Origin: an uncultured Lachnospiraceae bacterium
Lineage (GTDB): Bacteria; Bacillota; Clostridia; Lachnospirales; Lachnospiraceae
Reading direction: 5' to 3'
Assembly: GCA_947629865.1 (NCBI GenBank)
Contig: CANRFJ010000001.1
Location: 124,001 to 188,000, forward strand
Length of the DNA stretch: 64,000 bases
In this document: positions 15,306 through 42,112 of the stretch, piece by piece
How the letters are laid out: each line of letters starts with the position of its first letter
Numbering within the stretch: the stretch's first letter is position 1
Notes under the pieces: generated by a model
The model's database searches: none
What the model was told of the DNA's origin: nothing
The model's input: the letters and a program-made list of their open reading frames with translations, nothing else
Made by a program: the position numbers and the translations under genes

Positions 15306-15340
15306 TTACCGTCTCCTTGTCACTTTTTCCTGATTTATTC

Positions 15341-16054
15341 CTATGCCTGAAAGGTCTCAAATTTGTAGCCGATGCCCCACACGGTCGACAGCGCCCATTC
15401 CGAATGATCCTTGATCTTCTCCCGAAGCCGCTTGATATGCACGTCGATTGTACGGGTTTCTCCCGCATACTCATAGCCCCATATGTGGTCTAACAGCTGT
15501 TCCCTGGTAAATACCTGATTGGGGTGGGAGGCGAGAAAATACAGAAGCTCCAGTTCCTTCGGCGGCATATCCACCGAATTGCCCCGATAGATGACGGAGT
15601 AGTTGGAGAGATTGATCGTCAGATCCGTATAGGTTATGATCTCTTTCTCCGGCGCTCCGGCGTTGGAGGACGGAAGCGGGGCGTTCTCCGTGTAGCGCCG
15701 CAGCACGGCTTTTACACGGGCCACCAGCTCCTTTGTGTCAAAGGGCTTGATGATGTAGTCGTCGGCTCCCAGCTCCAGGCCAAGCACCGTGTCAAACACC
15801 TCCCCCTTGGCGGACATCATGATAATCGGGGTTGAATCGTGCTTGCGTATCTCGCGGCAGACGTCATATCCGTCCATGCCCGGAAGCATGATGTCAAGGA
15901 GAATCAGATGCGGCATAAATTCCTTGTGCTTCTTCAGCGCGCTCTCGCCGTCCTCCGCGATCTCACACTGGAAAAATTCCTTAGTCAGATACAGGGAAAT
16001 CAGCTTGGCGATATTGGCGTCGTCATCTACGATTAAAATTTTTTTCCTGTCCAT
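15341..16054 (-). CDS. OmpR/PhoB-family response regulator
   Basis: A 237-aa regulator: receiver domain with acidic pocket DDD (residues 10-12), phospho-acceptor Asp54 (LLDIMLPG) and conserved Lys (IKPFD), followed by an OmpR-type winged helix (TRTIDVHIKRLREKI). GAGGAGG precedes the ATG. It lies 12 nt after mutS2 and 35 nt before the histidine kinase, so all three are probably one transcript. Confidence 0.95.
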   Translation of the reverse strand: MDRKKILIVDDDANIAKLISLYLTKEFFQCEIAEDGESALKKHKEFMPHLILLDIMLPGMDGYDVCREIRKHDSTPIIMMSAKGEVFDTVLGLELGADDYIIKPFDTKELVARVKAVLRRYTENAPLPSSNAGAPEKEIITYTDLTINLSNYSVIYRGNSVDMPPKELELLYFLASHPNQVFTREQLLDHIWGYEYAGETRTIDVHIKRLREKIKDHSEWALSTVWGIGYKFETFQA

Positions 16055-16066
16055 TTTGGTTCCTCC

Positions 16067-18478
16067 TCACTTAAATTCCACTACCGTTACGCCGTATCCG
16101 CCCTCTCCGTACTCGCCCATGCGGTAGTTCTTTACATAGCGGCACTTCTTACAGTGGCTCTGCACGGCGTTGCGGAGGGCTCCGGTGCCTACGCCGTGTA
16201 TGACTGTGACCTGGTGAAGTTTGGCTAGATAGGCGTCGTCAAGATATTTATCGAGAACAGGGAGGGCCTCGTCTACGGTCTTCCCAATCAGGTTGATCTC
16301 CGGCGAAATCGTCATGGCTTTTGCCATTTTCATATTCCGCGCATGTGTAATGGTGGCCTCCTTTTTGGCTGCCTTGGTCTCCTGTTCCAGAAGCTCCAGA
16401 TCTTTTACGTCCACCTCGGAGCGCAGAATTCCCATCTGGACATAGCATTTGCCCCTGCTGTTCGGCGGGGTGCTTACCGTGCCCCTGACGCCCATGGAGT
16501 GAACCATGACAATATCGCCGACGGCCAGTTTATCCGGCGTTCCGGCAGGGTTTCTGTGAGTCTCCGGCAGGGCGGCCTGACTTTCTGCCCTGTCGATCTC
16601 CTCCCGGAGGGCGGCCCGTTCCCTCTCCATCTCCTTTGTCATGCCGGAATCGGACATCCAGCGGTTGTACTTACGAATGGACTCATCGGCCATATCCTTG
16701 GCCTTCTGGAGAATTTCACCGGCTTCCTCATTGGCGCGGCGCAGAATCTTGTCCTTGGCCCGGTCAATGCGCTCATTTTTCTCCTGCAGCTTCTGCTTGT
16801 AGCGCTCGGCCTCCTCCCGGAAGGTGCGGGCCCTCTCGCGTTCCTTTTCCGCCTCTGAGCGGGCCTGTTCAAGTCCCGCCACCACGTCCTCAAAGCTCTG
16901 GGCGTCGCTGTCAACTAACCGGCCGGCCGCCTGTATGATATCCTGCGGGAGGCCCAGCTTGCCGGAAATGGCAAAGGCGTTGCTCTTACCCGGAACCCCC
17001 ACCAGCAGACGGTAGGTGGGCTGGAGGGACTCCACGTCAAATTCGCAGGACGCATTTTCCACACCCTCCGTCGAGAGGGCGTATAGCTTCAGCTCGCTGT
17101 AGTGGGTGGTCGCCATCGCAGTCACATGCCGGGTGTGCAGATCGTCCAGAATGGCCGTGGCAAGCGCCGCCCCCTCGGTGGGATCGGTGCCCGCGCCCAG
17201 TTCATCAAAGAGAACCAGTGTGTTTTTGTCTGCCCGCTTCAAAATATAAACAGTATTTACCATGTGGGAGGAGAAGGTGCTGAGACTCTGCTCAATGCTC
17301 TGTTCGTCCCCGATATCCGCATACACCTCTCTGTAAACCCGCAGATGCGAGTGGTCGAGGGCGGGAATGTGAAGTCCGGCCTGCCCCATCAGGGTAAAGA
17401 GTCCCACGGTCTTCAGGGAGACGGTCTTGCCTCCGGTATTTGGCCCGGTGATAACCAAAAGATCATAGGTTTTGCCAAGCGTCACGTCAATGGGGACTAC
17501 GCTGTCCCTGACAATCAGCGGATGCCGCCCCTTCCGGATATGAATGTAATTCCGGTCAAACAGGGGCTCGCTGCCCTGCATATCCTTAGAGAGGGCGGCT
17601 TTGGCAAAAATGAAGTCAAGCTCCGCTAAAAGCAGTACGTCCTTCTGCAAATCTTCGGTGTAGGGAGCGGCCAGCGCACTGAGCGAGGCCAGAATCTTTT
17701 CGATTTCCTCCTGCTCCTTCATGGCCAGTTCGGCCAGTTCGTTATTCAGTTTGACAATGGCCATCGGCTCGATAAAAAAGGTGGAGCCGGTGGCGCTCTG
17801 ATCGTGGATCATGCCGGGAAAAGTGGATTTATATTCCCGCTTTACCGGCAGACAGTAGCGGCCGTTGCGCATAGTCACAAGGCTGTCCCGCAGCATGGCG
17901 CCGGAGGAGTTGACTGTGGCAGTCAGCTGTTCGCGCACCCGGTCGTTTACCTGATTCATGGAGCGGCGGATCCTTTTTAATTCGGGGCTGGCGTCGTCCG
18001 CCATCTCGTCGGGGCTCTTGATGCAGCGGGTAATCTCCCTGCGCAGATCCGGCAGATCCGAAAGGGCGGCAAAGCGCCCGGAGAGGGAGTCCCGATTCTG
18101 TCCGGAATCTTCTGCTGCGTCGTTTCCGGCAGAGGCCGCGGCGTCCGGAAGCCCCTTCTTGTCATAGGCGATAGCGCCGGCGGCAATCTCAAGGCAGCGG
18201 CACAGGTCGAGCAATTCGCCCATGCCGAGTACGCCTCCCTTTTCCAGTGGGGCGAGGCTTGGGCGTATGTCCCGCAGTCCGTGGAAAGCCGGTTTCCCGT
18301 GGCGGAACAGGCGTGTTAAAGCATGGGAGGTCTCCGTCTGCCAACTGATGATCTCCTCCCGCCGTGAGGAGGGCAGAAGACCTGCCGCCCGCTCCTTCCC
18401 CAGCGGAGAGTCGGCTTTTTCCGCCAGCATATTTATAATTTTATCGTATTCAAGCGTCTTTAATACTTTTTTGTTCAT
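16067..18478 (-). CDS. mutS2: endonuclease MutS2 / RqcU-type ribosome rescue ATPase
   Basis: An 803-aa MutS-family ATPase without the mismatch-recognition domains. Seen are core and clamp regions, Walker A (TGPNTGGKT, about residue 345), Walker B (LVLFDELGAGTDPTEG), a long coiled coil (about 520-630), a KOW-like stretch and the C-terminal Smr domain with HGVGTGALRNAV. In Firmicutes MutS2 acts on collided ribosomes and/or recombination intermediates. Start: AAAGGA lies 9 nt upstream of 18478; an in-frame start 34 codons upstream adds unrelated sequence. Confidence 0.94.
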   Translation of the reverse strand: MNKKVLKTLEYDKIINMLAEKADSPLGKERAAGLLPSSRREEIISWQTETSHALTRLFRHGKPAFHGLRDIRPSLAPLEKGGVLGMGELLDLCRCLEIAAGAIAYDKKGLPDAAASAGNDAAEDSGQNRDSLSGRFAALSDLPDLRREITRCIKSPDEMADDASPELKRIRRSMNQVNDRVREQLTATVNSSGAMLRDSLVTMRNGRYCLPVKREYKSTFPGMIHDQSATGSTFFIEPMAIVKLNNELAELAMKEQEEIEKILASLSALAAPYTEDLQKDVLLLAELDFIFAKAALSKDMQGSEPLFDRNYIHIRKGRHPLIVRDSVVPIDVTLGKTYDLLVITGPNTGGKTVSLKTVGLFTLMGQAGLHIPALDHSHLRVYREVYADIGDEQSIEQSLSTFSSHMVNTVYILKRADKNTLVLFDELGAGTDPTEGAALATAILDDLHTRHVTAMATTHYSELKLYALSTEGVENASCEFDVESLQPTYRLLVGVPGKSNAFAISGKLGLPQDIIQAAGRLVDSDAQSFEDVVAGLEQARSEAEKERERARTFREEAERYKQKLQEKNERIDRAKDKILRRANEEAGEILQKAKDMADESIRKYNRWMSDSGMTKEMERERAALREEIDRAESQAALPETHRNPAGTPDKLAVGDIVMVHSMGVRGTVSTPPNSRGKCYVQMGILRSEVDVKDLELLEQETKAAKKEATITHARNMKMAKAMTISPEINLIGKTVDEALPVLDKYLDDAYLAKLHQVTVIHGVGTGALRNAVQSHCKKCRYVKNYRMGEYGEGGYGVTVVEFK

Positions 18479-22601: not shown

Positions 22602-24170
22602 TTATCCTTCAATATCAACACTAAGTCCTGATTTAAATTCCACGGTGAATTTATCTTCAAAAACCGTGATTTTTTCAATAAGCTTTTTGATAAGTGTTTC
22701 ATCAAATTCCGTGATGTCGGTTTCCTGACGGGCGATGAAGTCCTGCAGCTCCTTGATTCGATTCATTGCTTCTTCGCGGCGGTGGCTGTCGACCTCGGAC
22801 TTTTCCTTCTGGTCGCGGAGCCGGAAAATCTCATCGGCGATGGCGTTATAGTCCTGTTTGTTATTTGCCTTCTTGATGAGCTCTTTTTGCAGTTCCTCAA
22901 GCCTTGCCTGAATACCGTCCGGCGAGAGGGTGTCAGCGTTAACCACGGCCTTGGCGATGTTCTGCTGTAAGGTTTTAAGGAAAAAGTCCCGCTCGGTAAG
23001 AATCTGATGGAAGGCCTTGACGGTGACTTCCTGCAGCAGAAGCTCGTTGACCGTCCGGTTGGTACAGTTCTTTTCAGCGGAGGTGGGCTCCAAGCGACTG
23101 ATGCAGCGCCAGACGATGGACTTGCAGCCGTGGTTGTTCCAGTGAACGCGCCGGTAAAGCTCGCCGCAGTCTCCGCAGAAAACCATCTGTGCAAAACAGT
23201 GATTGCAGGAGAAGCTGCGTTTCTTGCCTGTCGGACTGACGTGGACTACCCGGCGACGGACAAGCTCTGCCTGCACCTGCATGAAGAGCTCTTTCGGAAT
23301 GATTGCTTCGTGGTCGCCCTCGACGTAGTATTGAGGGACGGTACCGTTGTTCTTGATACGCTTCTTTGTCAGGAAGTCTGTGGTATAGGTCTTTTGAAGC
23401 AGCGCGTCACCCATGTATTTCTCGTTGCGGAGAATCTTGTTGATGGTGCTGGTGTGCCATTTTGTCTTGCCAGCGCCGGTGAGAATGCCGTCAGCCATAA
23501 GACCGTCGGCGATCTTATCCATGCTGGAGCCTTCGAGGTATTCCCGGTAGATGCGCTTTACAATTTCTGCTTGCTCCGGATCAATGATCAGGTGCCCGTT
23601 TTCATCCTTGGTGTATCCGAGGAAGCGATTGTGATTGACCTGTACCTTACCTTGCTGGTACCGATATTGAAGTCCCAACTTTATGTTCTGGCTCATTGAC
23701 TGGCTTTCCTGCTGGGCAAGGCTCGCCATGATCGTGATCAGCACCTCGCCCTTAGCGTCCAGCGTGTTGATGGCTTCCTTCTCGAAATAAACAGGTATGT
23801 TCTTGTCCTTCAACTGCCGGATGTATTGAAGGCAGTCGAGAGTGTTGCGGGCAAATCGGCTGATGGACTTGGTGATGACCATGTCGATATTACCGGCCAT
23901 GCACTCGTCGATCATTCGGTTGAATTCGTCACGCTTTTTTGTGTTGGTGCCGGAGATGCCGTCGTCTGCAAATATGCCTGCCAGCTCCCATTCCGGATTC
24001 TTTTGAATGTACTCGGTGTAGTGCGTGACCTGAGCCTCGTAGCTTGTTTCCTGTTCTTCGGAATCCGTGCTGACGCGGCAGTAGGCTGCAACACGGAGTT
24101 TTTTCTGCGCTGATTGCTTTACTGTATTTCCGACCTGCCGTCTGGCCGGGATAACCATAACATTTCCCAT
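22602..24170 (-). CDS. large serine recombinase
   Basis: A 522-aa site-specific recombinase of the resolvase/invertase superfamily that cuts and rejoins att sites through a serine-DNA link. The N-terminal catalytic domain has AYCRVSTD with the nucleophile Ser, and SRFARN. Next come the recombinase domain (about residues 190-290), a zinc ribbon ([20 protein letters not shown]), and a coiled coil with a C-terminal tail. It lies 1.4 kb inside the apparent island boundary and is the likely integrase of the element whose remnants fill the region, or of a smaller nested element. Confidence 0.9.
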
Positions 24171-24257: not shown

Positions 24258-24965
24258 TCAGTCAAAGAACCTGACAAACTTACGCAGTTCGGGGTTCTCG
24301 CTAAGAGCCTTGCGGATTTTATTCAGCGTCTTCCTGACAGCACCTTCGGTCACGCCGCGTTCGCGGGCAAGGCTGACGATTGTCTCGCCGTTCTTCAGAA
24401 TGCGCTCGTAGATTTCCTGCCACGACTCCGGCCATGCGGATGCGATCTCGTCCATCATCTCGACTGCGCCCGGCTCTGAATCGGAGGAGCGGTATGCCTT
24501 CGCCAGAATGGCGGACTTGTCGCCTGCGGCGCTTTCGTCATCACCATCGCCGTCAAGAATCTCATCGAGCGAGGCAGACCAGTTCTTGGGGAATCTCTCA
24601 TCGGCGGCATCCTCCACATCTGCGGGATGAAGCTCGTAGCCGTGTTCCGCCCTGAACCTGCGGATGTAGTCGGTTTTCCACTCGGCGATCTGCTGCTTTT
24701 CTTCAGCGGTGCGCTGCGGACGACGGGCTTTGAGGTTCTCATACACCTCGTGATCCTCAGCGGCGTAAAGAGACTTGATGGATTCTTCGGTAACATCATC
24801 CTCGCCGGGGATCAGTTCGATTTCTTCGATGTACTCGCGGGTTTTTCCGCCCACGGTCTCTTTGCCGTAAAAACGGTAGACATAGGTGTCTCTTTTGTTT
24901 GAAGCAGTTTTAACGAGCTGCTCGGCTCTGTTTTCTGAGTGGACATATACTTTTTTACGCTTCAT
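24258..24965 (-). CDS. sigma-70 region 4-like HTH protein
   Basis: A 235-aa protein. The N-terminal half is charged and of unknown fold. The C-terminal 60 residues resemble sigma region 4 or a FixJ-like HTH (ETIVSLARERGVTEGAVRKTLNKIRKAL). Genes like this often sit next to serine recombinases in Clostridia and may regulate element excision. Start 24965 has GGAGG 8 nt upstream; an upstream in-frame ATG at 25019 lacks one. The Shine-Dalgarno site lies in a hairpin (CCTCCG / CGGAGG, 24974-24979 and 24993-24998). The 87-bp gap to the recombinase suggests one operon. Confidence 0.65.
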   Translation of the reverse strand: MKRKKVYVHSENRAEQLVKTASNKRDTYVYRFYGKETVGGKTREYIEEIELIPGEDDVTEESIKSLYAAEDHEVYENLKARRPQRTAEEKQQIAEWKTDYIRRFRAEHGYELHPADVEDAADERFPKNWSASLDEILDGDGDDESAAGDKSAILAKAYRSSDSEPGAVEMMDEIASAWPESWQEIYERILKNGETIVSLARERGVTEGAVRKTLNKIRKALSENPELRKFVRFFD

Positions 24966-25017
24966 CTTGTTTACCTCCGTCCGTTCCCGAACCGGAGGCA
25001 GCAAAGCGCAAAAAGGC

Positions 25018-25197
25018 ATGGCTGACCTGACGGAACGGGAATATCTCGTTTCGTTTTTGGCCAGCCATGCTCGTAGGCTGGGTTGCTATTTACTTGTGAC
25101 CGTCAAGCAGTTCGAGCCACCTCTGCGCGCCAGGGTGAACCGCTATGTCGGCGGGCAGTTTTACGCCATACCCAGGGCAGAATGGTTAGTTATCTGA
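25018..25197 (+). CDS. possible 59-aa protein divergent from the sigma-like gene
   Basis: An ORF from ATG 25018 (MADLTEREYLVSFLASHARR...) with even, protein-like composition, but no well-spaced ribosome binding site. It lies divergent from the sigma-like gene and its 3' end overlaps that of the 66-aa gene by 8 nt. No family recognised. Confidence 0.25.
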   Translation: MADLTEREYLVSFLASHARRLGCYLLVTVKQFEPPLRARVNRYVGGQFYAIPRAEWLVI

Positions 25198-25390
25198 GAT
25201 TGGCTTCAATTGCATAAATCTCATTGAAGAGCTCGTTAAGAGCACTCAGACTTGCTTTGTCAAGATCGCTTACACCGTGCTTTTTGAAAATAAACGCTAC
25301 GGTCTCATCCGCTGAATCCAAACAGGACTCAATGAAGTCGACACTGTTTTCAATGCTGATAATCAGGTCTTGCCTGCTGTAATCGCCCAT
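25190..25390 (-). CDS. 66-aa hypothetical protein
   Basis: A small acidic, largely helical protein with no motif I recognise. GAGGAGG lies 7 nt upstream of the ATG on the minus strand, which is the main reason to accept it. Upstream of it on the same strand is a strong hairpin with a T-run (25519-25556). Confidence 0.5.
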   Translation of the reverse strand: MGDYSRQDLIISIENSVDFIESCLDSADETVAFIFKKHGVSDLDKASLSALNELFNEIYAIEANLR

Positions 25391-25518
25391 TGATCTTCCT
25401 CCTCGTAAAATTCAGCTTCAATCCGGATTTCTGCTGTGTTTGTACTTAAAATTTTACTCGGAACGGCAGGAGCAAAAAACGAATGGAAAAAGAACGTAAT
25501 CAGAAGGTTTTCGGAATG

Positions 25519-25556
25519 AAAAAAACCGGGGTTTCCACTCACGGCGGAAGCCCCGG
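25519..25556 (-). terminator. minus-strand intrinsic terminator
   Basis: An 11-bp stem (25526-25536 and 25546-25556, one G-T pair) with a 9-nt loop; on the minus strand it is followed by seven Ts. It insulates the recombinase module from antisense transcription coming from the defence operon. The remainder of the 369-bp gap 25391-25759 holds the operon promoter. Confidence 0.6.
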
Positions 25557-25688
25557 AAAGGTAAAAAAGATATTGTGTATAGGTAAATCATGTGGTGTTC
25601 AAGACAAGGCTAACACGCCGAGCCCATGTCAGACAAGGACTTGGGCTTCGAGAAAGTAAAGGCGAACACGAATGTTTTCGGTTTTGCC

Positions 25689-25719
25689 TTGACAAATGTG
25701 AAGATTTGTGCAATAATAT
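25689..25719 (+). promoter_or_regulatory. promoter and candidate operator of the HamAB-type III operon
   Basis: TTGACA (25689-25694), then AATAAT at 17-nt or TAATAT at 19-nt spacing. Between the boxes is an inverted repeat ACAAAT-6 nt-ATTTGT (25692-25697 and 25704-25709), well placed to be bound by the XRE protein encoded by the first gene. Confidence 0.6.
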
Positions 25720-25759
25720 TATATTAACGATATCATTGGACGCTCAAGGAGGATCGCCG

Positions 25760-25966
25760 ATGGAATATAACTACAATAAGCTATGGAAACTATTGATAGA
25801 TAAGAATTTGATGAAAAAAGACCTGATGGAAAAAACCGGCATCACATCATCTACTATCGCCAAGATGGGAAAGAACAAAGCAGTGAGTATGGAGGTTCTC
25901 GCCAAAATATGTATGGCTTTGGATTGTAATATAGGCGATATCGTTGAGGTAGTTAAAGAAGATTGA
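25760..25966 (+). CDS. XRE family HTH regulator
   Basis: A 68-aa Cro/CI-type helix-turn-helix protein filling the whole chain (KKDLMEKTGITSSTIAKM, then SMEVLAKICMALDCNIGDI). AAGGAGG is 7 nt before ATG 25760; an upstream TTG in frame lies before the promoter and is unlikely. It is the first gene of a five-gene operon and probably represses it through the palindrome between -35 and -10. A decayed paralog lies upstream of the BREX genes (49175-49404). Confidence 0.9.
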   Translation: MEYNYNKLWKLLIDKNLMKKDLMEKTGITSSTIAKMGKNKAVSMEVLAKICMALDCNIGDIVEVVKED

Positions 25967-26005
25967 TTTGAGGTGAACGAAACTATGGCGGAAGGAGGTA
26001 ATCAA

Positions 26006-27523
26006 ATGGAGCATCTTTGCGTCGGCTCATATGTGAGAATTATGACATCATGCGCTATTCCCGCAGAGCGCAAGTTTGATCCCTTCTGCGAGAAAATCAT
26101 GTTGTCACTATGTTCGGCAGGTGCAAAAGTCTTTTCATATACTTCAGCCGATGGGTATGAGGTTACCTACTCATATACTAATTTCAATAAGATTCACTCT
26201 GCAAGTCAGAATCTGCCCACCGAAGTTATGCAAATGGCTCTAAAGAAAGATGCCCATTCAATCGAACGGTATTTTATTCAGACTGTTATCCCTGCAATGG
26301 AAGAAGCTCGTAAGAAAAACGCCGTGCTCGCGTTGAAAAATGTTATTCTGAAAGATACCACAATTGCCGACACTACCCAGCTTGGCACCATTGGCGAACT
26401 CACAAAGAATGACCTTAAGAGTAAAAACGAGTTTGTACTTTCTGAATTTCTGACAGATGTGTTCATCTATGCTGTCGCAAAAACGGATAACATGGTAGAA
26501 GCTGCATTCACAAAATCTATTAAGAAGGATTTTTATGCCGCCTATAATCCAATGGCGGATACCATCAAATTTTACGAAGTAACAAAGCCGAAAACTGTGG
26601 CGGCGATACCTCTGACGAGCAAGGGGAAATTTGATAAGGTTTTTACTCCCGTGTCAAGCGAGACGCTTTCCATATCCGCAAAACATGACCTTCAGATTTT
26701 TTGTTTGAAGTTTGATGATTTTGATTTTGACTATCACGGTCTGTGGAGGCACCTTCGCAACAATATCGGGTATTACGTCTATTCCAGGGCTCAGATTGAG
26801 ACTTATATGGAAGATGATGAGATTTCTGCACTTGCTTACGATGCAATAGCGTATATCAAAAAAGCCATTGCTGACGGGAAATTACCGACCGGCAATGAGC
26901 TCGGAGAACTCTTGCTGTACATATTTCTGGAGCAGGTTCTCGTTGCTCCAAAATTGATGAGCAAGGTTGAAATAGGAAATCACGGCGGTTTCATGACGAG
27001 CGAAAGTTCCGGTATCCACCTTCTCACCGCTAATGAAACTGTTCCTTTTAGTCAGGTCATTCTCGGAACATCGATGATAAATGGTGATCTGCAAACTGCA
27101 ATAGATTCAGCTTTTGCGGATGCGCAGAAACTAAAGAACAGAAAGAAAGACGAGCGGCGATTTGTTGAGTCAAACATATTTGCGGCTTCTTTTCCAACGG
27201 AGATTTACAATCAGCTTGAAGCAATTATTCTGCCTTCCGAGACAGGCAGTCAAAAGCCTGCCACGGCGTTTGGTATGTTCGTGGGATACAGCCTGAACGG
27301 AGTATCCGCAAACGGAAAAGCCGTAAACGAATATCAGGATGATGTGCTTGAGCAGGTCAGGAATGACATCCAAAGCAACGTGTCATTCTTTGAATCGAAA
27401 ATCACGCAATATGGTCTTGACGGTTACTCTATGTATATTTATTTGCTTCCCTTTGCTGATGCAGACGAAGATAAAAAAGATATCATGGATAAGTTGCTGC
27501 AATCCGGAGGAGGTCAGGCATGA
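26006..27523 (+). CDS. hamA: HamA-like (DUF1837) Hachiman protein with N-terminal extension
   Basis: A 505-aa protein; typical HamA is roughly half this size. The C-terminal part matches DUF1837: GELLLYIFLEQVL (300-312), SKVEI with Lys320, SSGIHLL (334-340), and a segment ending GTSM (354-357) before the conserved helix DLQTAIDSAFADA. In HamA nucleases the segments corresponding to SSGIHLL and GTSM carry the catalytic Asp and a G-E-x-K. Here the Glu and Lys read Thr and Met, so catalysis may be lost. The N-terminal 230 residues have no family I recognise. ATG 26006 has AAGGAGG 7 nt upstream. The gene overlaps hamB by 4 nt. Confidence 0.7.
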   Translation: MEHLCVGSYVRIMTSCAIPAERKFDPFCEKIMLSLCSAGAKVFSYTSADGYEVTYSYTNFNKIHSASQNLPTEVMQMALKKDAHSIERYFIQTVIPAMEEARKKNAVLALKNVILKDTTIADTTQLGTIGELTKNDLKSKNEFVLSEFLTDVFIYAVAKTDNMVEAAFTKSIKKDFYAAYNPMADTIKFYEVTKPKTVAAIPLTSKGKFDKVFTPVSSETLSISAKHDLQIFCLKFDDFDFDYHGLWRHLRNNIGYYVYSRAQIETYMEDDEISALAYDAIAYIKKAIADGKLPTGNELGELLLYIFLEQVLVAPKLMSKVEIGNHGGFMTSESSGIHLLTANETVPFSQVILGTSMINGDLQTAIDSAFADAQKLKNRKKDERRFVESNIFAASFPTEIYNQLEAIILPSETGSQKPATAFGMFVGYSLNGVSANGKAVNEYQDDVLEQVRNDIQSNVSFFESKITQYGLDGYSMYIYLLPFADADEDKKDIMDKLLQSGGGQA

Positions 27524-30153
27524 GCGATTTTAGAAATGTCACCTTCGGGGAGCATTTGTTTTCGAGAATAGATGATAACGCTTATCTTCAAAAGTTGTAT
27601 CACAATATCCTTATCAACTATTCCAAACGCCTGTTTAGTTTGGATGAGATGGAGGAACAACCTGTTAACATTGGGGATGCCTTGACTTTTGCAGATGTGC
27701 TGTCAAAATCCTGCGGGACAAACCTTTCGGATATTCATAAGACTCGTGCGCAGGAGATGGTCGCGCTACTTTATGATATGTATCCTCAAGATGAGCAGGT
27801 GAAGTATTATCTCGGCTCTGTTCTTGCCAATACGGGGAATTTCCTCGGTATGAATAGGCTGACGCCGGATTTTGAAAACGCTTCTCTGCTTGAGCGTGTG
27901 TTCATGCACTTCAACATGGATTACCTGTCCGTGCCGTCCGATGGCGGGGCTCATTTCTTTCCTGCACAGAAAGAGATATACGACAGTCTATCCAGACCCT
28001 ATTTCAGCTATTCCGCGCCCACATCTATGGGGAAGTCCTTTATGATGCGTGCGTTTATTAAGCAGCAGATCACGGATGGCGCAAAGAAGAATTTCGCTTT
28101 GCTCATCCCTACGAAGGCACTGATAAACGAGGTTACGAGCGAATTAATCGAGAGTCTCACCACTCTTTTGAAGGAGACGGATTACCGTATTGTGACATCC
28201 TCCGGCTCGATGGCATTAGAGACGAAGCATAACTATATTTTCGTCCTGACACCAGAGCGAATGCTTTACATTTTGATTGATGATCCTGACCTTATGATCG
28301 ACTATTTGTTTGTGGATGAGGCTCATAAAATATCTTCCGGCGATAAGAGGAGTGCATTCTATTACAAGGTTATCAACAAGTTAGAAGAACGGCACAGCAA
28401 TACACATATCATATTCGCCTCGCCGAACATTCCGAATCCGAGAGTTTATCTCGATACACTGTCAAAGAGAGAATGGACTATCGGCGAAGAAGCTATTGTG
28501 GCGTGCAGATATGCTCCTGTCAGTCAGCTAAAATATATCGTTGACCTGTGGGAACGTAATATCCGTATCTTCGATTCATACTCGAAGAAATTTATACTGT
28601 TGCACGAAATGAGCCGCCAGTACTCTTTGAGTGAGGTAATTGCCCGTATCGGCGATAAGCGTCACAACATCGTTTATTGCAAGTCAAAGAATGATGCCAT
28701 TCAGTTTGCAAGAGACTATGCGGATACACAAGACCCAATCGGTGATAAAAAACTACAGGCATTTGCGGAGGCAATCCGCAGCGATGTCCATAAGGAATAT
28801 TATCTTGCCGAATTGGTGGAAAAAGGCGTGGCATACCACATTGGCTATTTGCCTGCCAATATCAGAATGCAGCTTGAGGACTACTACCGGGACGGTCTAA
28901 TCAAGACTATGTTCTGCACAAGTACTTTGCTGGAGGGAGTCAATCTTCCTGCGGAGAACCTTTTCATTACAAGCTACAAGAAAGGCAGAAGCGACTTCTC
29001 TGAAGTGGACTTCAAGAACCTGGTCGGCCGTGTCGGACGCGCAAAGTACAATCTGTATGGCAATGTCTTTATTGTGAGACTCCAGAAGCAGGAACGAGAG
29101 GAGGATTTACAGAAATTTGAGGATTTGCTGAAGGACGATGTGCCCCCGCAGAAACTGTCCATAGAAGCGGAGTTAAATTCGAATCAGAAAAAGCTCATAG
29201 TAGACACGCTTCTTTCCGGCAGTGTAGAAATACACAAGTCCAGGAAAAATCAGAGCGAAGATAACTACGAGCTGATGCGAAAAACGATGCTGATTCTTGT
29301 TGGGGATATCGTAAACGACAGGAACAGCCGCGTAAAGCGGGAATTTGCCCCATACCTGACACCTGAGACTGAGTCAAAAATCCGGGAGCAGTTTTCTGTA
29401 CCGGAGAAAAAGCCAGAGGATGATATCAATGTCTCGTATGATCAGATACAGGGTATCGAAAAACTCATCCGTGACGGACTGGCATATCCCGAAATCAAAG
29501 ATCAGAAACGCGGAGCGGATTATTACGAGACGCTGGCATTCCTCAATAAATTGGCTGTGGCGTTCAAGTGGCGCATCTACGAAAATCGGACACTTGGAGC
29601 CGGAGAAGGAAGAAATTATACAAAGCTGACATGGTATACCGTTCTTCTGACCCAATGGATGCAGGGACATGGTCTTAGCTACATCATCGGACAAAGCATT
29701 GATGATTATGACGAGAAGAAGCGAGAAGTACGAGTCGAATACAACAAGTGGGAACCGTTTGACGGTTCGCAGAAGCACAAGAACATAATCATCGCCGATA
29801 CGCTGGAGGCGATTGAGGATGTACTTCTGTTCCGGCTGTCAAACTACTTTCTCAAATTTTCGGAGGAATGCAAGCGTCAGCGTCCCAACGAACCGTTCAC
29901 GAACGACTGGTATGAGTTTGTGGAGTACGGTACAACAAACCGCCTGCGCATCATTCTGCAGCGAAGCGGTTTTAAACGGGATTCGACTGAATATATACGG
30001 CGAAATGCCGATAAGTATGTACGAGGGACGCCAGACAACCCCAAGCTGCTGAAAAAGGCGTTACTGGAGTGTCCGAACGAACTGGTGAGAAGAGACACCG
30101 AAGAAATCCAGTACAATGTACCGGAGCTATTTATAGATGAAGGAGAAGAATAA
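27520..30153 (+). CDS. hamB: HamB-like Ski2-type helicase
   Basis: An 877-aa superfamily 2 helicase. Visible are Walker A (SAPTSMGKS, about residue 165), the DEAH box (FVDEAHK, about 265), motif III as FASPNI, and motif VI as LVGRVGR (about 500), followed by a long helical C-terminal region. In Hachiman defence HamB scans DNA and releases HamA when it meets damaged or phage DNA. It is coupled to hamA by an ATGA overlap and to the methyltransferase gene, whose ATG starts 1 nt after its stop. SF2 helicase identity is certain; the HamB assignment rests on its DUF1837 partner and motif variants. Confidence 0.8.
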   Translation: MSDFRNVTFGEHLFSRIDDNAYLQKLYHNILINYSKRLFSLDEMEEQPVNIGDALTFADVLSKSCGTNLSDIHKTRAQEMVALLYDMYPQDEQVKYYLGSVLANTGNFLGMNRLTPDFENASLLERVFMHFNMDYLSVPSDGGAHFFPAQKEIYDSLSRPYFSYSAPTSMGKSFMMRAFIKQQITDGAKKNFALLIPTKALINEVTSELIESLTTLLKETDYRIVTSSGSMALETKHNYIFVLTPERMLYILIDDPDLMIDYLFVDEAHKISSGDKRSAFYYKVINKLEERHSNTHIIFASPNIPNPRVYLDTLSKREWTIGEEAIVACRYAPVSQLKYIVDLWERNIRIFDSYSKKFILLHEMSRQYSLSEVIARIGDKRHNIVYCKSKNDAIQFARDYADTQDPIGDKKLQAFAEAIRSDVHKEYYLAELVEKGVAYHIGYLPANIRMQLEDYYRDGLIKTMFCTSTLLEGVNLPAENLFITSYKKGRSDFSEVDFKNLVGRVGRAKYNLYGNVFIVRLQKQEREEDLQKFEDLLKDDVPPQKLSIEAELNSNQKKLIVDTLLSGSVEIHKSRKNQSEDNYELMRKTMLILVGDIVNDRNSRVKREFAPYLTPETESKIREQFSVPEKKPEDDINVSYDQIQGIEKLIRDGLAYPEIKDQKRGADYYETLAFLNKLAVAFKWRIYENRTLGAGEGRNYTKLTWYTVLLTQWMQGHGLSYIIGQSIDDYDEKKREVRVEYNKWEPFDGSQKHKNIIIADTLEAIEDVLLFRLSNYFLKFSEECKRQRPNEPFTNDWYEFVEYGTTNRLRIILQRSGFKRDSTEYIRRNADKYVRGTPDNPKLLKKALLECPNELVRRDTEEIQYNVPELFIDEGEE

Positions 30154-30154
30154 G

Positions 30155-31906
30155 ATGGCGAACTTTTACGAAACCGTGCTGACGGTACTGAAATCAGACG
30201 AGAGGTTTGTGGCCGAAGACGGCACTTTCCTGCGCAATGCGGTCTACGAGGCCGCAATGAAGATGGACGAGGGACTTATCCGTCTCCTTCTTGCGAATGA
30301 CGAGACACGCACTCGCTTCTTTACTGATGTCGATGGCATTAAAGTCTTTGACAAAATGGGTTTCGCTTGGGTTATCAACAACCGGCAATTTCTGCCTGAT
30401 AGCTATACCCGTTTCAAAAATAAGATTGGGCTTACAGATGAAAACGGTGATTTGATTTCTACCTCCGGCAAAGTTGAGCTTGTTTTCCCGTATAAGGACT
30501 GTGTTCTTGAGGGCGGGCAAACAAGAGAGGATCAAAAACGCCAAGAAATTTTTTACAATAGTTCGCTTGCGCCTGACGAAGTCGATAGACTGTTATATCC
30601 GAAAGTGCTGACTTGTGCGTGCAGGTACACTTTAGAAGGTTGTGAAAGCATTAGCAAAATACAAAAAAGTGATAATCTCATTATCAAAGGCAATAATCTC
30701 CTTGCTTTGGCATCACTTCTTAAAGTGTATGAAGGTCAAATCAAGTGCATCTATATTGATCCGCCGTTCAATACTGGAAACGATAGCTTCAACTATAACG
30801 ACCGTTTTACTCGTGCCACATGGCTTACTTTTATGAAGGACAGATTGCTTTTGGCAAAGCGTCTTCTTTCCTCCGACGGCAATATTTTTATTCATATTGA
30901 CATTAATCAGTCACATTATTTAAAGGTGCTTGCTGATGAAATTTTTGATGAAGAAAACTTCGTTGAGGAAATTATCTGGGCATATGGTTCTCCATCTGGC
31001 GGAAGAGCTGCAACACCAAAGCCGGTTAATATCCATGATTATATCTTACATTATGCCAAGAATTATTCCAGCAGAAAGCAAAATCGAGTTTATGTTCCTT
31101 ACACAGAAAAATATATAAATGATTGGTTCAAATATACAGACGAGGATGGTAGGAGATATCGACGTAGACAACGGGGCAAGGATGAAAACGGGAACGCAAT
31201 ATGGTCCAAGCAATATTTAGATGAAAGCAAAGGCGTTCCATTATCAACCGTTTGGAGCGATATTCAACAAGTATATGCTGACCCTCGTGCATACAAAGAG
31301 GGAAATAAAGCAGATGTGGAGGTCATAAAAGAGTTTAGTGGTGGGCAAAAACCAGAGGCTTTAATTCAAAGAATTTTCGAGATGTCTACTGATGAAGGAG
31401 ATATTATTTTGGATTTTCATCTTGGGACTGGAACAAGTGCTGCAACAGCACACAAGATGAAGCGGCAATATATTGGTGTGGAGCAACTGGATTCTCAAAT
31501 TGACATCATAGTTAGAAGGTTAAAGAAAGTTATTGATGGTGAAACAGCAGGTATTTCCAAAGTAACAAATTGGCAGGGCGGCGGTTCATTTGTTTACTGT
31601 GAGCTTGCAAAGCTGAACCAAACGATCGTGGAAGAAATCGAGGGTGCTATTGATGATTCCACCTTATCCGACATCTACGGCAGAATGCTGAAGTCCGGCT
31701 TTATCAGCTACAAGGTCAATCCAGCTGATATTGATGCAGCTGCCGATGATTACGCTGCGCTCTCACTGGATGACAAGAAACGATTTCTAATGGAAATTTT
31801 GGATAAAAATCTTCTGTATGTGAATTACTGCGACATTGACGATGAGGAATTTGGTATCTCTGAGGAGGACAAAGCGTTCACACGGAGTTTTTACGGGGAG
31901 GAATAA
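30155..31906 (+). CDS. mod: type III restriction-modification methyltransferase (Mod)
   Basis: A 583-aa adenine-N6 DNA methyltransferase of the beta class: catalytic motif IV DPPFNTG (about residues 202-208) comes before SAM motif I DFHLGTG (about 420), with the recognition region between. It methylates one strand of the target and forms the Mod2Res complex. ATG 30155 has AAGGAGAA 8-9 nt upstream, inside the end of hamB. An in-frame ATG 18 nt upstream overlaps hamB and is less likely. No phase-variable simple repeats are seen in the gene. Followed by res after 3 nt. Confidence 0.9.
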   Translation: MANFYETVLTVLKSDERFVAEDGTFLRNAVYEAAMKMDEGLIRLLLANDETRTRFFTDVDGIKVFDKMGFAWVINNRQFLPDSYTRFKNKIGLTDENGDLISTSGKVELVFPYKDCVLEGGQTREDQKRQEIFYNSSLAPDEVDRLLYPKVLTCACRYTLEGCESISKIQKSDNLIIKGNNLLALASLLKVYEGQIKCIYIDPPFNTGNDSFNYNDRFTRATWLTFMKDRLLLAKRLLSSDGNIFIHIDINQSHYLKVLADEIFDEENFVEEIIWAYGSPSGGRAATPKPVNIHDYILHYAKNYSSRKQNRVYVPYTEKYINDWFKYTDEDGRRYRRRQRGKDENGNAIWSKQYLDESKGVPLSTVWSDIQQVYADPRAYKEGNKADVEVIKEFSGGQKPEALIQRIFEMSTDEGDIILDFHLGTGTSAATAHKMKRQYIGVEQLDSQIDIIVRRLKKVIDGETAGISKVTNWQGGGSFVYCELAKLNQTIVEEIEGAIDDSTLSDIYGRMLKSGFISYKVNPADIDAAADDYAALSLDDKKRFLMEILDKNLLYVNYCDIDDEEFGISEEDKAFTRSFYGEE

Positions 31907-31909
31907 ACG

Positions 31910-34510
31910 ATGGCGTTCTTATATGAAAAAATTGATGCTTTGCGTGAATACGGCAACATTGCTGCTCTTCCGTCCTATATCCCGGAGAACCTGAACCCGA
32001 ATTTCGAGTTGCGCCCGTATCAGAAACAGGCATTTGAAAACTTTATAACACATTTCGAGAGCAGTAACCGTCCGAAGCCTACGCAGGTACTTTTTCACAT
32101 GGCTACAGGTAGCGGCAAGACTCTGATTATGGCAGGGCTGATGCTGTATCTCTACAAGCAGGGATATCGGAATTTCCTGTTCTTTGTCAACCTCTCGAAC
32201 ATTGTTGAAAAGACACGGGAAAACTTCCGCAATCCGACCTCTTCGAAGTATCTCTTTGCAGATGAGATTATGCTGGATGGAGAACGCCTCCGCATCAACC
32301 AGGTGGACAATTTCCAGTATGCTGACCAGAATGCTATCAACATCTGCTTTGCCACCACGCAGGGACTCCACATGGATATGTGGATGGCAAAGGAGAATGG
32401 TATGTCATTTGACGATTTTGACGAGCAGAAGGTCGTGCTGATTTCTGATGAGGCGCACCATTTGAATGTCGACACCAAAAAGAAAATGTCTGCTGATGAG
32501 GAATCGAGCTATCATTCCTGGGAACAGACTGTAAAAAATATCTTCAGCCGGAATGCTGATAACATCCTGCTGGAGTTTACGGCTACCTGTGATCTTGCGA
32601 ATCCAGCGATTCGTGCGGCATATGAGAACAAGATTATATTCGACTATGCTTTGGCAAAGTTTTATGGCGATAGGTATTCCAAGGACATCATCACGCTGCG
32701 TTCTGACCTGACCATCATGGAGAGGGCTTTGCAGGCGCTTGTTCTCAGTCAATATCGGTTGAAGGTATTTCAGGACAATCGTCTTGGAATTAAGCCTGTT
32801 GTGCTTTTTAAGGCTGCAAAGATTGCAGACAGCAAGGACTTCATGGTTGAGTTTATTGAGACGATGAAAAAGCTGACCGGCTCACAGCTGCGCAGTCTTT
32901 CCACTGCCGTCAACAACGATGTCATGCATAAAGCCTTTGCTTACTTTGCAAACAACGGCATCTCTTTTGATACCCTTGCTGCGGAGCTTCGTGATGACTT
33001 TTCCGAGGAGCATTGCGTTTCCGTAAATGATGATAAGGATGCCACACAGAAGCAGATTCTCTTGAATTCGCTTGAGGATGCGGACAATCCTTTCCGTGCA
33101 ATCTTTGAGGTCAAGAAACTGGATGAGGGCTGGGATGTTCTGAACCTGTTTGATATTGTCCGGCTTTATGAGACGAGGCAGTCCAGCGGCAAAAAAATAG
33201 CTCCCGCCACTATAGCGGAAGCACAGCTGATCGGACGTGGAGCAAGATACTGCCCATTTCAACTTGACGATGAGCAGCCGAAGTTTCAGAGAAAATATGA
33301 CGAGGATGTAACCTGTGAACTGCGTGTCTGCGAGACACTCTATTATCATTGTCAGAACGACCATCGCTATGTGACGGAGTTGCGTAATGCCCTGCGTGAG
33401 ATCGGTCTGGATACCGACAAAATCGTACAGCGTGAATATGTTCTTAAGGACGATTTCAAAGCCACAGACATATATCAGCAAGGCTTGATTTTCTTAAATG
33501 ATAGAGAGGTAAAAGACAGAAAAGATGTGCGTGGTCTTACGCCGACCGTCCGGGATGACATATACCGTTTCCAAGCTGCGGCGGGAGCATCCGGTTTTGA
33601 TTCTGTCATGGTGGAGACTTCGCAGGGAGTTGACCTTGTTATTGATTTAAAAACGGCGCACATGACCATCAAGGAAATCGCAGCCATCAATTATGCCCTT
33701 GTTAACAAGGCTTTGATGAAATATCCGATTTTCAAGTTTAATACCCTGCGTTCCTATTTTCCAAATGTCTCATCCACGAGGCAGTTTATCACCGATGATG
33801 AGTATCTCGGGGCTGTCCGTATCGACATTCAGAGCAAGGATGAGCATCCGACTATGGAAACGCTATACGCAGCGGTGTTCTATGTCCTTGGCAAGATAGC
33901 CGGTTCCATTTCCGGCATCGAAGAAACCTACAGAGGTACAAAGACATTCCGGGCAAGGAGCATCAGAGATGTTTTCCGCAACAAGACTGTCAATTATACT
34001 GATCCGCATGATGGCGGAATCGGCATTTCACAGAATGATCCGTCCGTCAGGAACGATTGGAAAATTGACCTCTCTACGGAAGACTGGTTTGTCTATACCG
34101 ATAACTACGGAACATCAGAGGAGAAAGCCTTTGTTGCTTACTTCCGTGGATATGTTGCTGACTTGAGAAGGATTTATAACCGCATCTATCTTGTCAGAAA
34201 TGAGCGTGAATTCCACATCTATTCGTTTGAGGACGGTGAGCGTTTCGAGCCGGACTATGTTCTTTTCCTGCAGAGAGATAAGACGGATGGCTTTGAGCAG
34301 CTCCAGATTTTTATCGAGCCGAAAGGTACGCAGCTTCTCGAAAAGGATGCGTGGAAAGAAAAATTCCTGCTCCAGTTAAAGACGGAGGCTGTGCCGGCTA
34401 CCATCTTTGTGGATGACAACGACTACAAGATTTGGGGACTCCACTTCTTCAATCAGGATAACCGTATGAAGGAATTTGACTCGGAGTTTGTAGCCTTGAT
34501 TGGAAAGTAA
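31910..34510 (+). CDS. res: type III restriction endonuclease subunit (Res)
   Basis: An 866-aa DEAD-family translocase-nuclease. It has Walker A MATGSGKT (64-71), the SDEAHH box (about 178), a second RecA domain with a DEGWDVLN motif, and a C-terminal PD-(D/E)xK nuclease region (EPDYVLF...IEPKG, about residues 779-805). With Mod it cleaves DNA when sites are unmethylated. GGAGG lies in the end of mod. It is the last gene of the XRE-hamA-hamB-mod-res cluster. Confidence 0.92.
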   Translation: MAFLYEKIDALREYGNIAALPSYIPENLNPNFELRPYQKQAFENFITHFESSNRPKPTQVLFHMATGSGKTLIMAGLMLYLYKQGYRNFLFFVNLSNIVEKTRENFRNPTSSKYLFADEIMLDGERLRINQVDNFQYADQNAINICFATTQGLHMDMWMAKENGMSFDDFDEQKVVLISDEAHHLNVDTKKKMSADEESSYHSWEQTVKNIFSRNADNILLEFTATCDLANPAIRAAYENKIIFDYALAKFYGDRYSKDIITLRSDLTIMERALQALVLSQYRLKVFQDNRLGIKPVVLFKAAKIADSKDFMVEFIETMKKLTGSQLRSLSTAVNNDVMHKAFAYFANNGISFDTLAAELRDDFSEEHCVSVNDDKDATQKQILLNSLEDADNPFRAIFEVKKLDEGWDVLNLFDIVRLYETRQSSGKKIAPATIAEAQLIGRGARYCPFQLDDEQPKFQRKYDEDVTCELRVCETLYYHCQNDHRYVTELRNALREIGLDTDKIVQREYVLKDDFKATDIYQQGLIFLNDREVKDRKDVRGLTPTVRDDIYRFQAAAGASGFDSVMVETSQGVDLVIDLKTAHMTIKEIAAINYALVNKALMKYPIFKFNTLRSYFPNVSSTRQFITDDEYLGAVRIDIQSKDEHPTMETLYAAVFYVLGKIAGSISGIEETYRGTKTFRARSIRDVFRNKTVNYTDPHDGGIGISQNDPSVRNDWKIDLSTEDWFVYTDNYGTSEEKAFVAYFRGYVADLRRIYNRIYLVRNEREFHIYSFEDGERFEPDYVLFLQRDKTDGFEQLQIFIEPKGTQLLEKDAWKEKFLLQLKTEAVPATIFVDDNDYKIWGLHFFNQDNRMKEFDSEFVALIGK

Positions 34511-34513
34511 ACC

Positions 34514-34563
34514 TTTCAGCGTTTACACACTTTTCAGCGATAGCCGTACATTTTAGCGATAGC
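34514..34563 (+). repeat. iteron-like short repeats
   Basis: Three related units at 18-19 nt spacing: TTTCAGCG (34514), TTTCAGCGATAGC (34532) and TTTTAGCGATAGC (34551). They lie between res and the next ribosome binding site and may mark the remains of a plasmid- or ICE-type control region. Confidence 0.45.
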
Positions 34564-34591
34564 AGAAATCTCGCAGGAAGGAGGGTGCAAA

Positions 34592-34861
34592 ATGGCAATG
34601 GCACAGACAGCTTTCAGAACAAGACCGACTTACTACCGTCACAGCACGGCGGCAGCAAGGCGGTCGCAAAGAGCGGAAATGCCTTTATTTCAAGCCTTTT
34701 TACGCCCTTCTTCCGTGAAAGTCACAGATGGGCTTTGTATCAAAGACGCTACTACGATAGATGGAATTTGCAGTACTGGAAATTCCTTGACTAATGCGAA
34801 CGATGGCAGGGTAGTAAAGGTTGAGTGTGGGAACGCTAAATATATGGAGGTGAACGCATGA
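34592..34861 (+). CDS. 89-aa basic hypothetical protein
   Basis: An ORF with a very strong ribosome binding site (AAGGAGGG, 6 nt before the ATG) whose stop overlaps the ATG of the following AlbA_2 gene (ATGA). The N-terminal half is Arg/Ala-rich (FRTRPTYYRHSTAAARRSQR). No family recognised; it may be a gene truncated and joined to new sequence, acting as a coupled leader for the next gene. Confidence 0.4.
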   Translation: MAMAQTAFRTRPTYYRHSTAAARRSQRAEMPLFQAFLRPSSVKVTDGLCIKDATTIDGICSTGNSLTNANDGRVVKVECGNAKYMEVNA

Positions 34862-36210
34862 TAGCAGAAAGCCAGAATATTGAATGGAAAGAATCCTGGC
34901 GCGACGAATATCTGAAATGGATATGCGGTTTTGCCAATGCGCAGGGAGGAAAGATTTATATCGGTAAAAGGGACGATGGCACTGTTATTGGAGTCAGTGA
35001 TGCCAGAAAACTGATGGAGGATATTCCAAACAAAATCCAAAACAAGCTTGGCATTGTTGCGGATGTAAATCTTCTCACCGAAAACGGAGCAGAATACATT
35101 GAGATTGCGGTTTCACCATGTTCGTTCCCTGTCAATTATGATGGCGAGTATCATTATCGCAGCGGCAGTACGAAACAGCAGCTTCGCGGCAGCGCGTTGA
35201 CAAATTTTCTGATGTCAAAGACTGGAATCAGGTGGGACGCCGCGACAGTCAACAATATTACAGTTGATGATTTGGATAAGGAGAGCTTTGATATCTTTCG
35301 TCGTGAGGCGCTCCGCAGCGGCCGCATGACAAAGGATGATTTGGATATACCAAATGCTGAGCTTTTGGACAAGCTCGACCTGCTTGTCGATGGCAAGCTG
35401 AAGAGAGCCGGAGCATTGTGCTTCTATCGAAACGCAGAAAAGGTTATCAGCGGCTGTTATGTAAAGATCGGAAAATTCGAGGGCAGTGAGCTTTTGTACC
35501 AGGATGAAGTGCATGGCTCTCTGCTGCTTATGGCCGACCGGGTAATCGACTTAATCTATCTGAAGTACCTGAAAGCCGCAATTTCGTATTACAAAGAAAC
35601 CAGGGTTGAAACCTATCCTTTTGCCCGCGACGCGGTGCGCGAGGCAGTCTATAATGCGCTGATTCATTGCAATTGGGCTGACAATATTCCGATCCAGATC
35701 CGCATTGAGGAAGACGTTATGTACATCAGCAACAGTAGTCTGCTTCCTTTTGGATGGACGGCGGAGACATTGATGGGAGCGCATTCCTCAAAGCCTTTCA
35801 ATCCGGATATCGCAAATGTATTTTATCGCGCGGGCTATATTGAAAGCTGGGGACGCGGAATTCAAAAAATTTGTGATGCCTGTAAGAGCCTTGGTGCAGA
35901 TGAACCGGTATATATTCTTCATGGTGAAGATATCATGGTGAAATTCCGTGCCCTGCAAAGTGCCATAGTATCGGATCCTAAAGTTCCAAAGCACCAAAGC
36001 ACCGCAGATAATGGTGCTTTGGATGACGCTTTAGTGAAAAAGATTCTGGAAGCGCTAAGACACAAACCAGAAATTTCACAAGGCGAAATGGCAGAAGAAC
36101 TTGAGACTACAAGACGGGTGATTCAAAAGAAAATGACTCTTTTGAAAGAAGCAGGACGTATTGAACGTGTCGGCGGCAAGCGTTATGGTCACTGGATAAT
36201 CCATGAATAA
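34858..36210 (+). CDS. AlbA_2 / HATPase_c_4 putative transcriptional regulator
   Basis: A 450-aa protein of the family often called ATP-dependent DNA helicase RecG-like or putative DNA-binding protein. The N-terminal AlbA_2 (Schlafen-like) domain has IEWKESWRDEYLKWICGFANAQGG. A GHKL-type ATPase region follows (EAVYNALIHCNW; YRAGYIESWGRGI). It ends in a winged helix (ISQGEMAEELETTRRVIQKKMTLLKEAG). It may be a regulator or a Schlafen-like nuclease-type defence component. It is clearly paralogous to the gene at 42113-43468 along its whole length. Confidence 0.75.
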   Translation: MIAESQNIEWKESWRDEYLKWICGFANAQGGKIYIGKRDDGTVIGVSDARKLMEDIPNKIQNKLGIVADVNLLTENGAEYIEIAVSPCSFPVNYDGEYHYRSGSTKQQLRGSALTNFLMSKTGIRWDAATVNNITVDDLDKESFDIFRREALRSGRMTKDDLDIPNAELLDKLDLLVDGKLKRAGALCFYRNAEKVISGCYVKIGKFEGSELLYQDEVHGSLLLMADRVIDLIYLKYLKAAISYYKETRVETYPFARDAVREAVYNALIHCNWADNIPIQIRIEEDVMYISNSSLLPFGWTAETLMGAHSSKPFNPDIANVFYRAGYIESWGRGIQKICDACKSLGADEPVYILHGEDIMVKFRALQSAIVSDPKVPKHQSTADNGALDDALVKKILEALRHKPEISQGEMAEELETTRRVIQKKMTLLKEAGRIERVGGKRYGHWIIHE

Positions 36211-42068: not shown

Positions 42069-42112
42069 AATGTTCTTCAATACTAGTGACTTTATGAAAG
42101 GGGGTGATTTGT

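Follow-up and report, generated by a model that had tools for sequence, protein, structure and literature searches.

A Hachiman-derived HamAB pair without the HamA nuclease motif shares operons with changing restriction-modification partners

What does a Hachiman-like gene pair do in the operon of a type III restriction-modification (RM) system? RM is usually seen as a self-contained first-line defence, with Hachiman standing apart from it as an abortive one. The locus analysed here lies in a 64,000-nt stretch of DNA from an uncultured Lachnospiraceae bacterium (assembly GCA_947629865.1, contig CANRFJ010000001.1, positions 124,001 to 188,000; the whole stretch is called the window, and coordinates refer to it unless another locus is named). 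Five plus-strand open reading frames (ORFs), read from the sequence and its translations, encode in order an XRE-type regulator (XRE), a HamA-like protein, a HamB-like helicase and the Mod and Res subunits of a type III RM system (Table 1). From sequence comparisons, we give about an even chance to the reading that in this cassette a type III RM system that works on its own is linked to an accessory Hachiman-derived HamAB sensor without a nuclease motif, the output of which would pass through the N-terminal domain (NTD) of HamA.

Recurrence of the five-gene order

Relatives of the window HamB were collected from 80 genome loci (the best 80 of 172), 51 viral-contig loci and two phage records; loci carry L numbers throughout. 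Ten of them reach at least 80% HamB identity. One of these (L005) ends inside hamB, and among the nine that can be read further the next gene is mod in eight and an HsdR-HsdM-HsdS set in the ninth (L088, 81%). The eight mod-bearing relatives are not independent, as seven fall into the window's own cluster at 90% HamB identity. The order XRE-HamA-HamB-Mod-Res also occurs at 50 to 51% HamB identity, namely in Clostridium sp. cel8 (L014; identity to the window 76% for XRE, 31% for HamA, 51% for HamB, 45% for Mod and 46% for Res), in Haloimpatiens lingqiaonensis (L020), where mod is split into two frames, and in Vagococcus acidifermentans (L019), which has an insert between mod and res. These data uphold the proposal of an earlier, sequence-only reading that the genes form a unit behind one promoter and are not chance neighbours; the opposite pattern, in which close hamAB homologs almost never adjoin mod/res, was not seen. 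That reading had also called the unit fixed. The gene order does recur, but the pairing is not fixed to type III, given that type I and type II-like partners are found beside several kinds of type III. A fixed type III pairing was rejected on the type I genes of L088 and on L101, a Mod-Res-HamAB locus nested with the HsdMSR-HamAB loci L100 and L102. Within its genus the cassette is rare: a search of 39 genomes gave a close HamB in that of the window alone, and a 28% relative in one other. The insert of L019 (positions 14650-16672 of that locus) is a minus-strand gene of 513 aa in a cassette with otherwise the same genes.

The gaps of +39, -4, +1 and +3 nt previously given for the successive genes are reproduced exactly by the coordinates, hamB following hamA directly with the 4-nt overlap. 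The hamA start at 26006 was preferred to an in-frame GTG at 25973 (gap 6) because AGGAGG stands just upstream. A GGAG in the 3' end of hamB, read from the frames, lies about 9 nt before the mod ATG, which is consistent with coupled translation of hamB and mod. When the region 24500-36000 was scanned for promoters, the best match was found upstream of XRE (Table 1); the number of promoter-like sites (21) was not above that in shuffles (mean 18.6, standard deviation 4.5), and the best internal plus-strand site, at 26520-26548 within hamA, matched 10/12. Terminator-like sites were somewhat above shuffles (17; mean 10.3, standard deviation 2.9), and the four on the plus strand between XRE and the end of res are weak (5-7 pairs). 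Neither scan revealed a strong signal between hamB and mod, in line with the earlier statement that no internal promoter or terminator is visible. An extended -10 element of the TGTGnTATAAT type was seen by eye upstream of XRE in many of 32 rows compared, the window included. The five genes are probably carried on a single transcript. Continuation of the operon past res into an AlbA-type gene (34592-36210) was rejected, because a different gene follows res in seven of eight complete relatives. This is a DUF4357/GIY-YIG cluster gene, present in L008-L011, L013, L014 and L020 and not in L004, which indicates that the 3' flank was exchanged.

Restriction-modification partners across the HamAB clade

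The RM company of the clade was compared with that of 31 Hachiman loci of other clades from Bacillota genomes, eight of which are cut by contig ends, leaving 23 that are well flanked. Among 52 non-redundant clade clusters with at least 4 kb on both sides, 38 have RM genes in the same gene run (gaps under 300 nt, with some RM genes several genes away), against 2 of the 23 controls (Fisher p 2e-7). If RM genes on either strand are counted up to a distance of 6 kb, the figures are 45 of 52 and 3 of 23 (Fisher p 1e-9). Over all 31 control loci an RM methylase was found in the same run at three and within 6 kb at four, in whole-genome searches of 28 control genomes with Pfam N6_Mtase, N6_N4_Mtase and DNA_methylase and a scan of ten large neighbours, which left out D12-type methylases (the basis of the L070 assignment) and in which nearness to HamB was judged by hand. 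Labels in the clade came from local hidden Markov models built from the clade's own neighbours, a bias that the whole-genome control searches were meant to balance, with 20 proteins checked in Pfam and ten further neighbours later. The later check found RM genes in L070, L062, L077, L105 and L183 and none in L110, L050 or the tested L119 gene, and L070 alone altered the count, from 37 to 38. Before that addition, the partners comprised 20 type I systems, 8 type III systems, 7 C5 methylases, one mixed case and one specificity gene only; those confirmed in Pfam include HsdM, HsdR, restriction genes of the LlaJI, SacI and AlwI types, and a number of ResIII helicases adjoining Mod.

Chance neighbourhood was rejected on the basis of the control. 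Together with the tight overlaps in close cassettes, the surplus of RM genes relative to the Bacillota control loci also argues against two independent defence systems that share only a promoter within a defence island and have no functional link. We regard that account as unlikely, even though the window is itself a defence island, with GmrSD, BREX-like and mobile-element genes, and an RptR-controlled island places another defence system and a type I RM system under one promoter and repressor (PMC12255303).

On the HamB tree, which came from a quick search without a mixture model and contains several long rows of unsure placement, the type III label (nine rows) changes at least seven times even when only strongly supported branches are counted, a change being either a gain or a loss. 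The label is only mildly clustered (seven changes; 15 of 500 shuffles were as low). One row of this tree, L067, had its label changed by hand from type III to none; the run there does contain RM genes, but at a greater distance downstream, and the locus counts as RM-positive among the 52. These results clearly point to partner exchange between RM types, and such repeated re-association argues for a benefit of RM company as such and against two unlinked systems behind a common promoter.

A search for relatives of the window Res gave 17 loci (12 of them viral and 5 from 393 genomes of the class, not counting that of the window), a set that includes near-copies (L208/L209 and L211/L212) and some rows cut downstream. 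HamAB is absent from 15 of the 17, and the two that have it are contigs already in the HamB set. XRE-Mod-Res without HamAB is found in L207 and L211/L212, whose XREs share 33 and 38 of 68 residues, respectively, with the window XRE. In L201, whose Res is 89% identical to that of the window, a deletion scar at approximately 7537-7761 brings an XRE remnant near to the end portion of hamB. The remnant matches window 25846-25899; after 34 nt comes sequence that matches the window from 30017, and then mod and res, which keep long frames of 632 and 866 aa. A TATAAT box stands just upstream of the XRE remnant. The scar means that mod-res was kept without HamAB, and that the upstream promoter can become the nearest one to mod. 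A tie of Mod-Res to HamAB, as earlier supposed, is thus not borne out. Dependence looks one-sided, in that RM does not appear to need HamAB; the same separability would also suit two independent systems.

Loss of the HamA nuclease motif and the candidate output domain

The HamA nuclease of Hachiman requires D-E(X)K, with E138 and K140 in the ECOR31 protein (PMC12278908), a motif written as D-GEXK in PMC12799240. Both catalytic residues are absent from the window HamA (Table 1). Of the 79 clade clusters whose HamA can be read, 77 lack the D-GExK motif, GESK being kept in L021 and L022, whereas E-x-K can be read in 29 of 30 other HamAs, including the tree outgroup L166 (the exception is L185). 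Because the motif is lost, the window HamA is unlikely to be a DNA cutter. A model with HamA as the nuclease was set aside for that reason, and the pair is filed as Hachiman-derived rather than as canonical Hachiman. HamB, in contrast, keeps its motifs (Table 1), and the window protein matches PDB 9wh1_B with an E value of 9.5e-76; 9wh1_A/B is the nearest solved pair by sequence. The loss of GExK and the hamAB deletion in L201 could be taken to mean that the window HamAB is a decaying remnant, its nuclease lost and the module disappearing. We consider this very improbable, since the motif is missing clade-wide, yet long frames are kept at about 22-33% (HamA, distant rows) and 41-52% (HamB) identity, and decay would not preserve these or the intact HamB motifs.

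HamAs of the clade are either long (mostly about 480-516 aa) or short (mostly about 305-320 aa). In the window protein the PF08878 (DUF1837) match covers residues 248-483 (E 1e-32), and an N-terminal extension is fused to a HamA domain that lacks the nuclease motif. This NTD has no significant Pfam match (none better than E 0.03). It also occurs in a separate protein of about 312 aa adjoining XRE in L056, L058 and L060, with the order XRE-[NTD protein]-HamA-HamB in L058 and an Ig-like domain behind the NTD, by Pfam, in L060. In a 766-aa protein of L013 (3047-5347) and the near-copy L012, the NTD is accompanied by TPRs and by an NTPase-like stretch that scores under the Pfam cut-offs. The NTD is replaced by a TIR domain in L025 (PF13676, E 5e-10), and a TIR-HamA was assigned in Syntrophomonas zehnderi (L049) by the length, sequence and motif row shared with L025; both operons read HsdM-HsdS-HsdR-[TIR-HamA]-HamB, and the HamA nuclease motif is absent from both. 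These observations indicate that the N-terminal slot of HamA is swapped between loci. In L012 and L013 the five-gene cassette lies about 3 kb downstream of the 766-aa protein, with an AlbA-type gene between the two.

Many short-HamA operons are headed by a protein of about 290 aa, C2 (for example L016:7911-8822), with the same Ig-like domain (N_BRCA1_IG), which Pfam recognised in L049 and L016 and scored below cut-off in L064. It is often followed by an HTH_17-type protein of about 73 aa (Pfam on L016). In a profile comparison the N-terminus of C2 aligns with the NTD (hhalign prob 84, E 8e-6), a weak sign of relationship.

In related systems aberrant DNA is detected by HamB, which passes the signal on by way of HamA, and an inactive HamA can relay it to a fused effector (PMC12278908, PMC12799240). 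We infer comparable roles for the window, where HamB would sense DNA, HamA would be inactive, the NTD would be the output and products of Res would be the trigger. The XRE protein would set the level of the one transcript, and Mod-Res would mark self DNA and cut unmarked incoming DNA. HamB would read damaged or abnormal DNA, either the ends that Res leaves or, where restriction has failed, intermediates of phage replication, and the nuclease-dead HamA domain would relay its signal to the fused NTD. The NTD may be an effector that poisons or arrests the cell, or an adaptor through which such an effector is recruited. HamAB would then form a second, probably abortive, layer on RM operons of diverse types. 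HamAB may thereby survey what Res has cut, as the sequence-only reading imagined. A Hachiman and type II RM island of Streptococcus thermophilus gave protection "far exceeding" that of Hachiman alone, RM alone not being separated in that comparison (PMC12322248).

Control could instead be rewired, with the nuclease-dead HamAB damage sensor acting on RM, either with Res/HsdR as its effector or via the NTD and the small XRE/HTH protein raising RM expression upon infection. The clade would then have given up its own nuclease and become an exchangeable accessory of type I, II and III RM, a damage sensor that uses restriction as its arm, be it as effector or as inducible output. We are doubtful of this account in both its specific and its clade-wide form. 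It is strongest for the short HamAs: of the well-flanked clusters in which these have neither GExK nor a fused domain, 19 of 21 have RM at a distance of 6 kb or less. The share is almost as high for the long HamAs (23 of 27). NTD-like domains adjoin small HTH genes in both architectures (XRE with NTD-HamA, and C2, often with its small HTH partner), and the profile match above would link the two, weak as it is. XRE is better kept across the cassettes than HamA (76-78% identity in L014, L019 and L020, where HamA has 31-32%); since it also precedes Mod-Res in L207 and L211/L212, where HamAB is absent, it could be a gene of the RM system rather than a partner of HamA. The 15 loci without HamAB and the scar of L201 also speak against this account, as RM does not need HamAB.

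Several observations weigh against the preferred reading, that of an autonomous RM system with an accessory HamAB sensor acting through the NTD. Most of the Res loci without HamAB are only 41-60% identical to the window Res, and among the compared Res relatives at 87% or above only L201 is without HamAB. RM genes are missing from the same gene run at 14 of the 52 clade loci and from within 6 kb at 7, so that a neighbouring RM system is apparently not indispensable to HamAB of this clade. GExK is also lost in 37 of 39 short-HamA clusters, though these have no fused domain, and their output must therefore be something other than an N-terminal fusion, be it the nuclease of the RM system, a protein of the C2 type or the product of a gene downstream. 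The NTD belongs to no recognised catalytic family, and calling it an effector follows from its position.

Known systems and genomic setting

If the preferred reading is true, a partner-changing clade without its own nuclease motif would supply RM operons with a common alarm module, and natural versions with HamAB, without HamAB and with a deletion scar give a clean genetic test. The pair resembles Hachiman (Tuck et al. 2024, PMC12278908) in having a DUF1837 HamA that overlaps a Ski2-like HamB with intact motifs; it differs from the system presented there in the missing D-E(X)K/GExK, the additional NTD of about 200 aa and the seat in RM operons. Inactive HamA fused to another effector has been described as AbpA (PMC12278908) and as protease-HamA (PMC12799240). 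AbpAB and protease-HamA (HamMAB) share with the window an inactive HamA domain with an N-terminal fusion, whereas the domain fused in the window matches no recognised family and has TIR in its place in two relatives, and RM linkage is not described in the accessible parts of those papers. The RptR-controlled island (type I RM, DarTG and M48; PMC12255303) likewise puts RM under the same promoter and repressor as a further defence system; its regulator and partner differ from those of the window, and the word "Hachiman" is absent from the available text. Among the matches listed, no title or abstract opening describes Hachiman within RM operons, and a description may still be in print.

Mod and Res of the window show the mod-res order and the expected motifs of type III RM, and differ from it in being preceded by XRE-hamA-hamB in one operon. 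In type III Mod proteins, exchange of the target-recognition region gives a replaced middle. Among five relatives with 85-96% HamB identity, the middle of Mod is only 22-40% identical, whereas the first 150 residues are 74-100% and the last stretch 90-92% identical, which fits a probable exchange of this region. The known Mod-Res systems closest to the pair are EcoP15I-like.

Table 1. Features of the cassette and its surroundings in the window
Feature	Position	Strand	Basis or remark
Operon promoter TTGACA-17 nt-AATAAT, TG before -10	25689-25717	+	best scan match, 11/12, region 24500-36000
XRE-type HTH regulator, 68 aa, HTH only	25760-25966	+	PF13443 (HTH_26) E 3e-21; query carried one extra upstream codon
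HamA-like, 505 aa, NTD and DUF1837 (HamA) domain	26006-27523	+	PADLOC PDLC00164 E 5e-204
HamA NTD, about 200 aa	26006-26620	+	common to long HamAs; also in NTD-Ig and NTD-NTPase-TPR proteins elsewhere
Position of canonical G-E-x-K	27062-27076	+	reads L-G-T-S-M, catalytic E and K absent; alignments
HamB-like Ski2-type helicase, 877 aa	27520-30153	+	PADLOC PDLC00190 E 0
HamB Walker A PTSMGKS	28018-28038	+	intact
HamB DEAH	28315-28326	+	intact
HamB GRVGR	29026-29040	+	intact
Type III Mod, N6/N4 methyltransferase, 583 aa	30155-31906	+	N6_N4_Mtase PF01555 E 1e-42; TypeIII_RM_meth PF12564 E 1e-24
Mod DPPF	30758-30769	+	intact
Probable target-recognition region of Mod (approximate)	30887-31336	+	replaced between otherwise near-identical cassettes
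Mod DFHLGTG	31412-31432	+	intact
Type III Res, helicase and PD-EXK nuclease, 866 aa	31910-34510	+	ResIII E 2e-33; directly 3' of mod
Res GSGKT	32108-32122	+	intact
Res DEAH	32447-32458	+	intact
Res PD...EPK	34250-34324	+	intact
Serine recombinase	22602-24170
ParB	36773
TraG/D piece	37518
HipA_C-like protein	38682		below cut-off
GmrSD	44328-46397
BrxC-like ATPase	50711-54310
Eco57I-type methylase	54324-57884

Defence-island and mobile-element genes surround the cassette from 22602 to 57884 (Table 1). After res come a small ORF and a protein with SLFN_AlbA_2, HATPase_c_4 and HTH domains (34592-36210), and a second AlbA-type gene of the window lies at 42104-43468.

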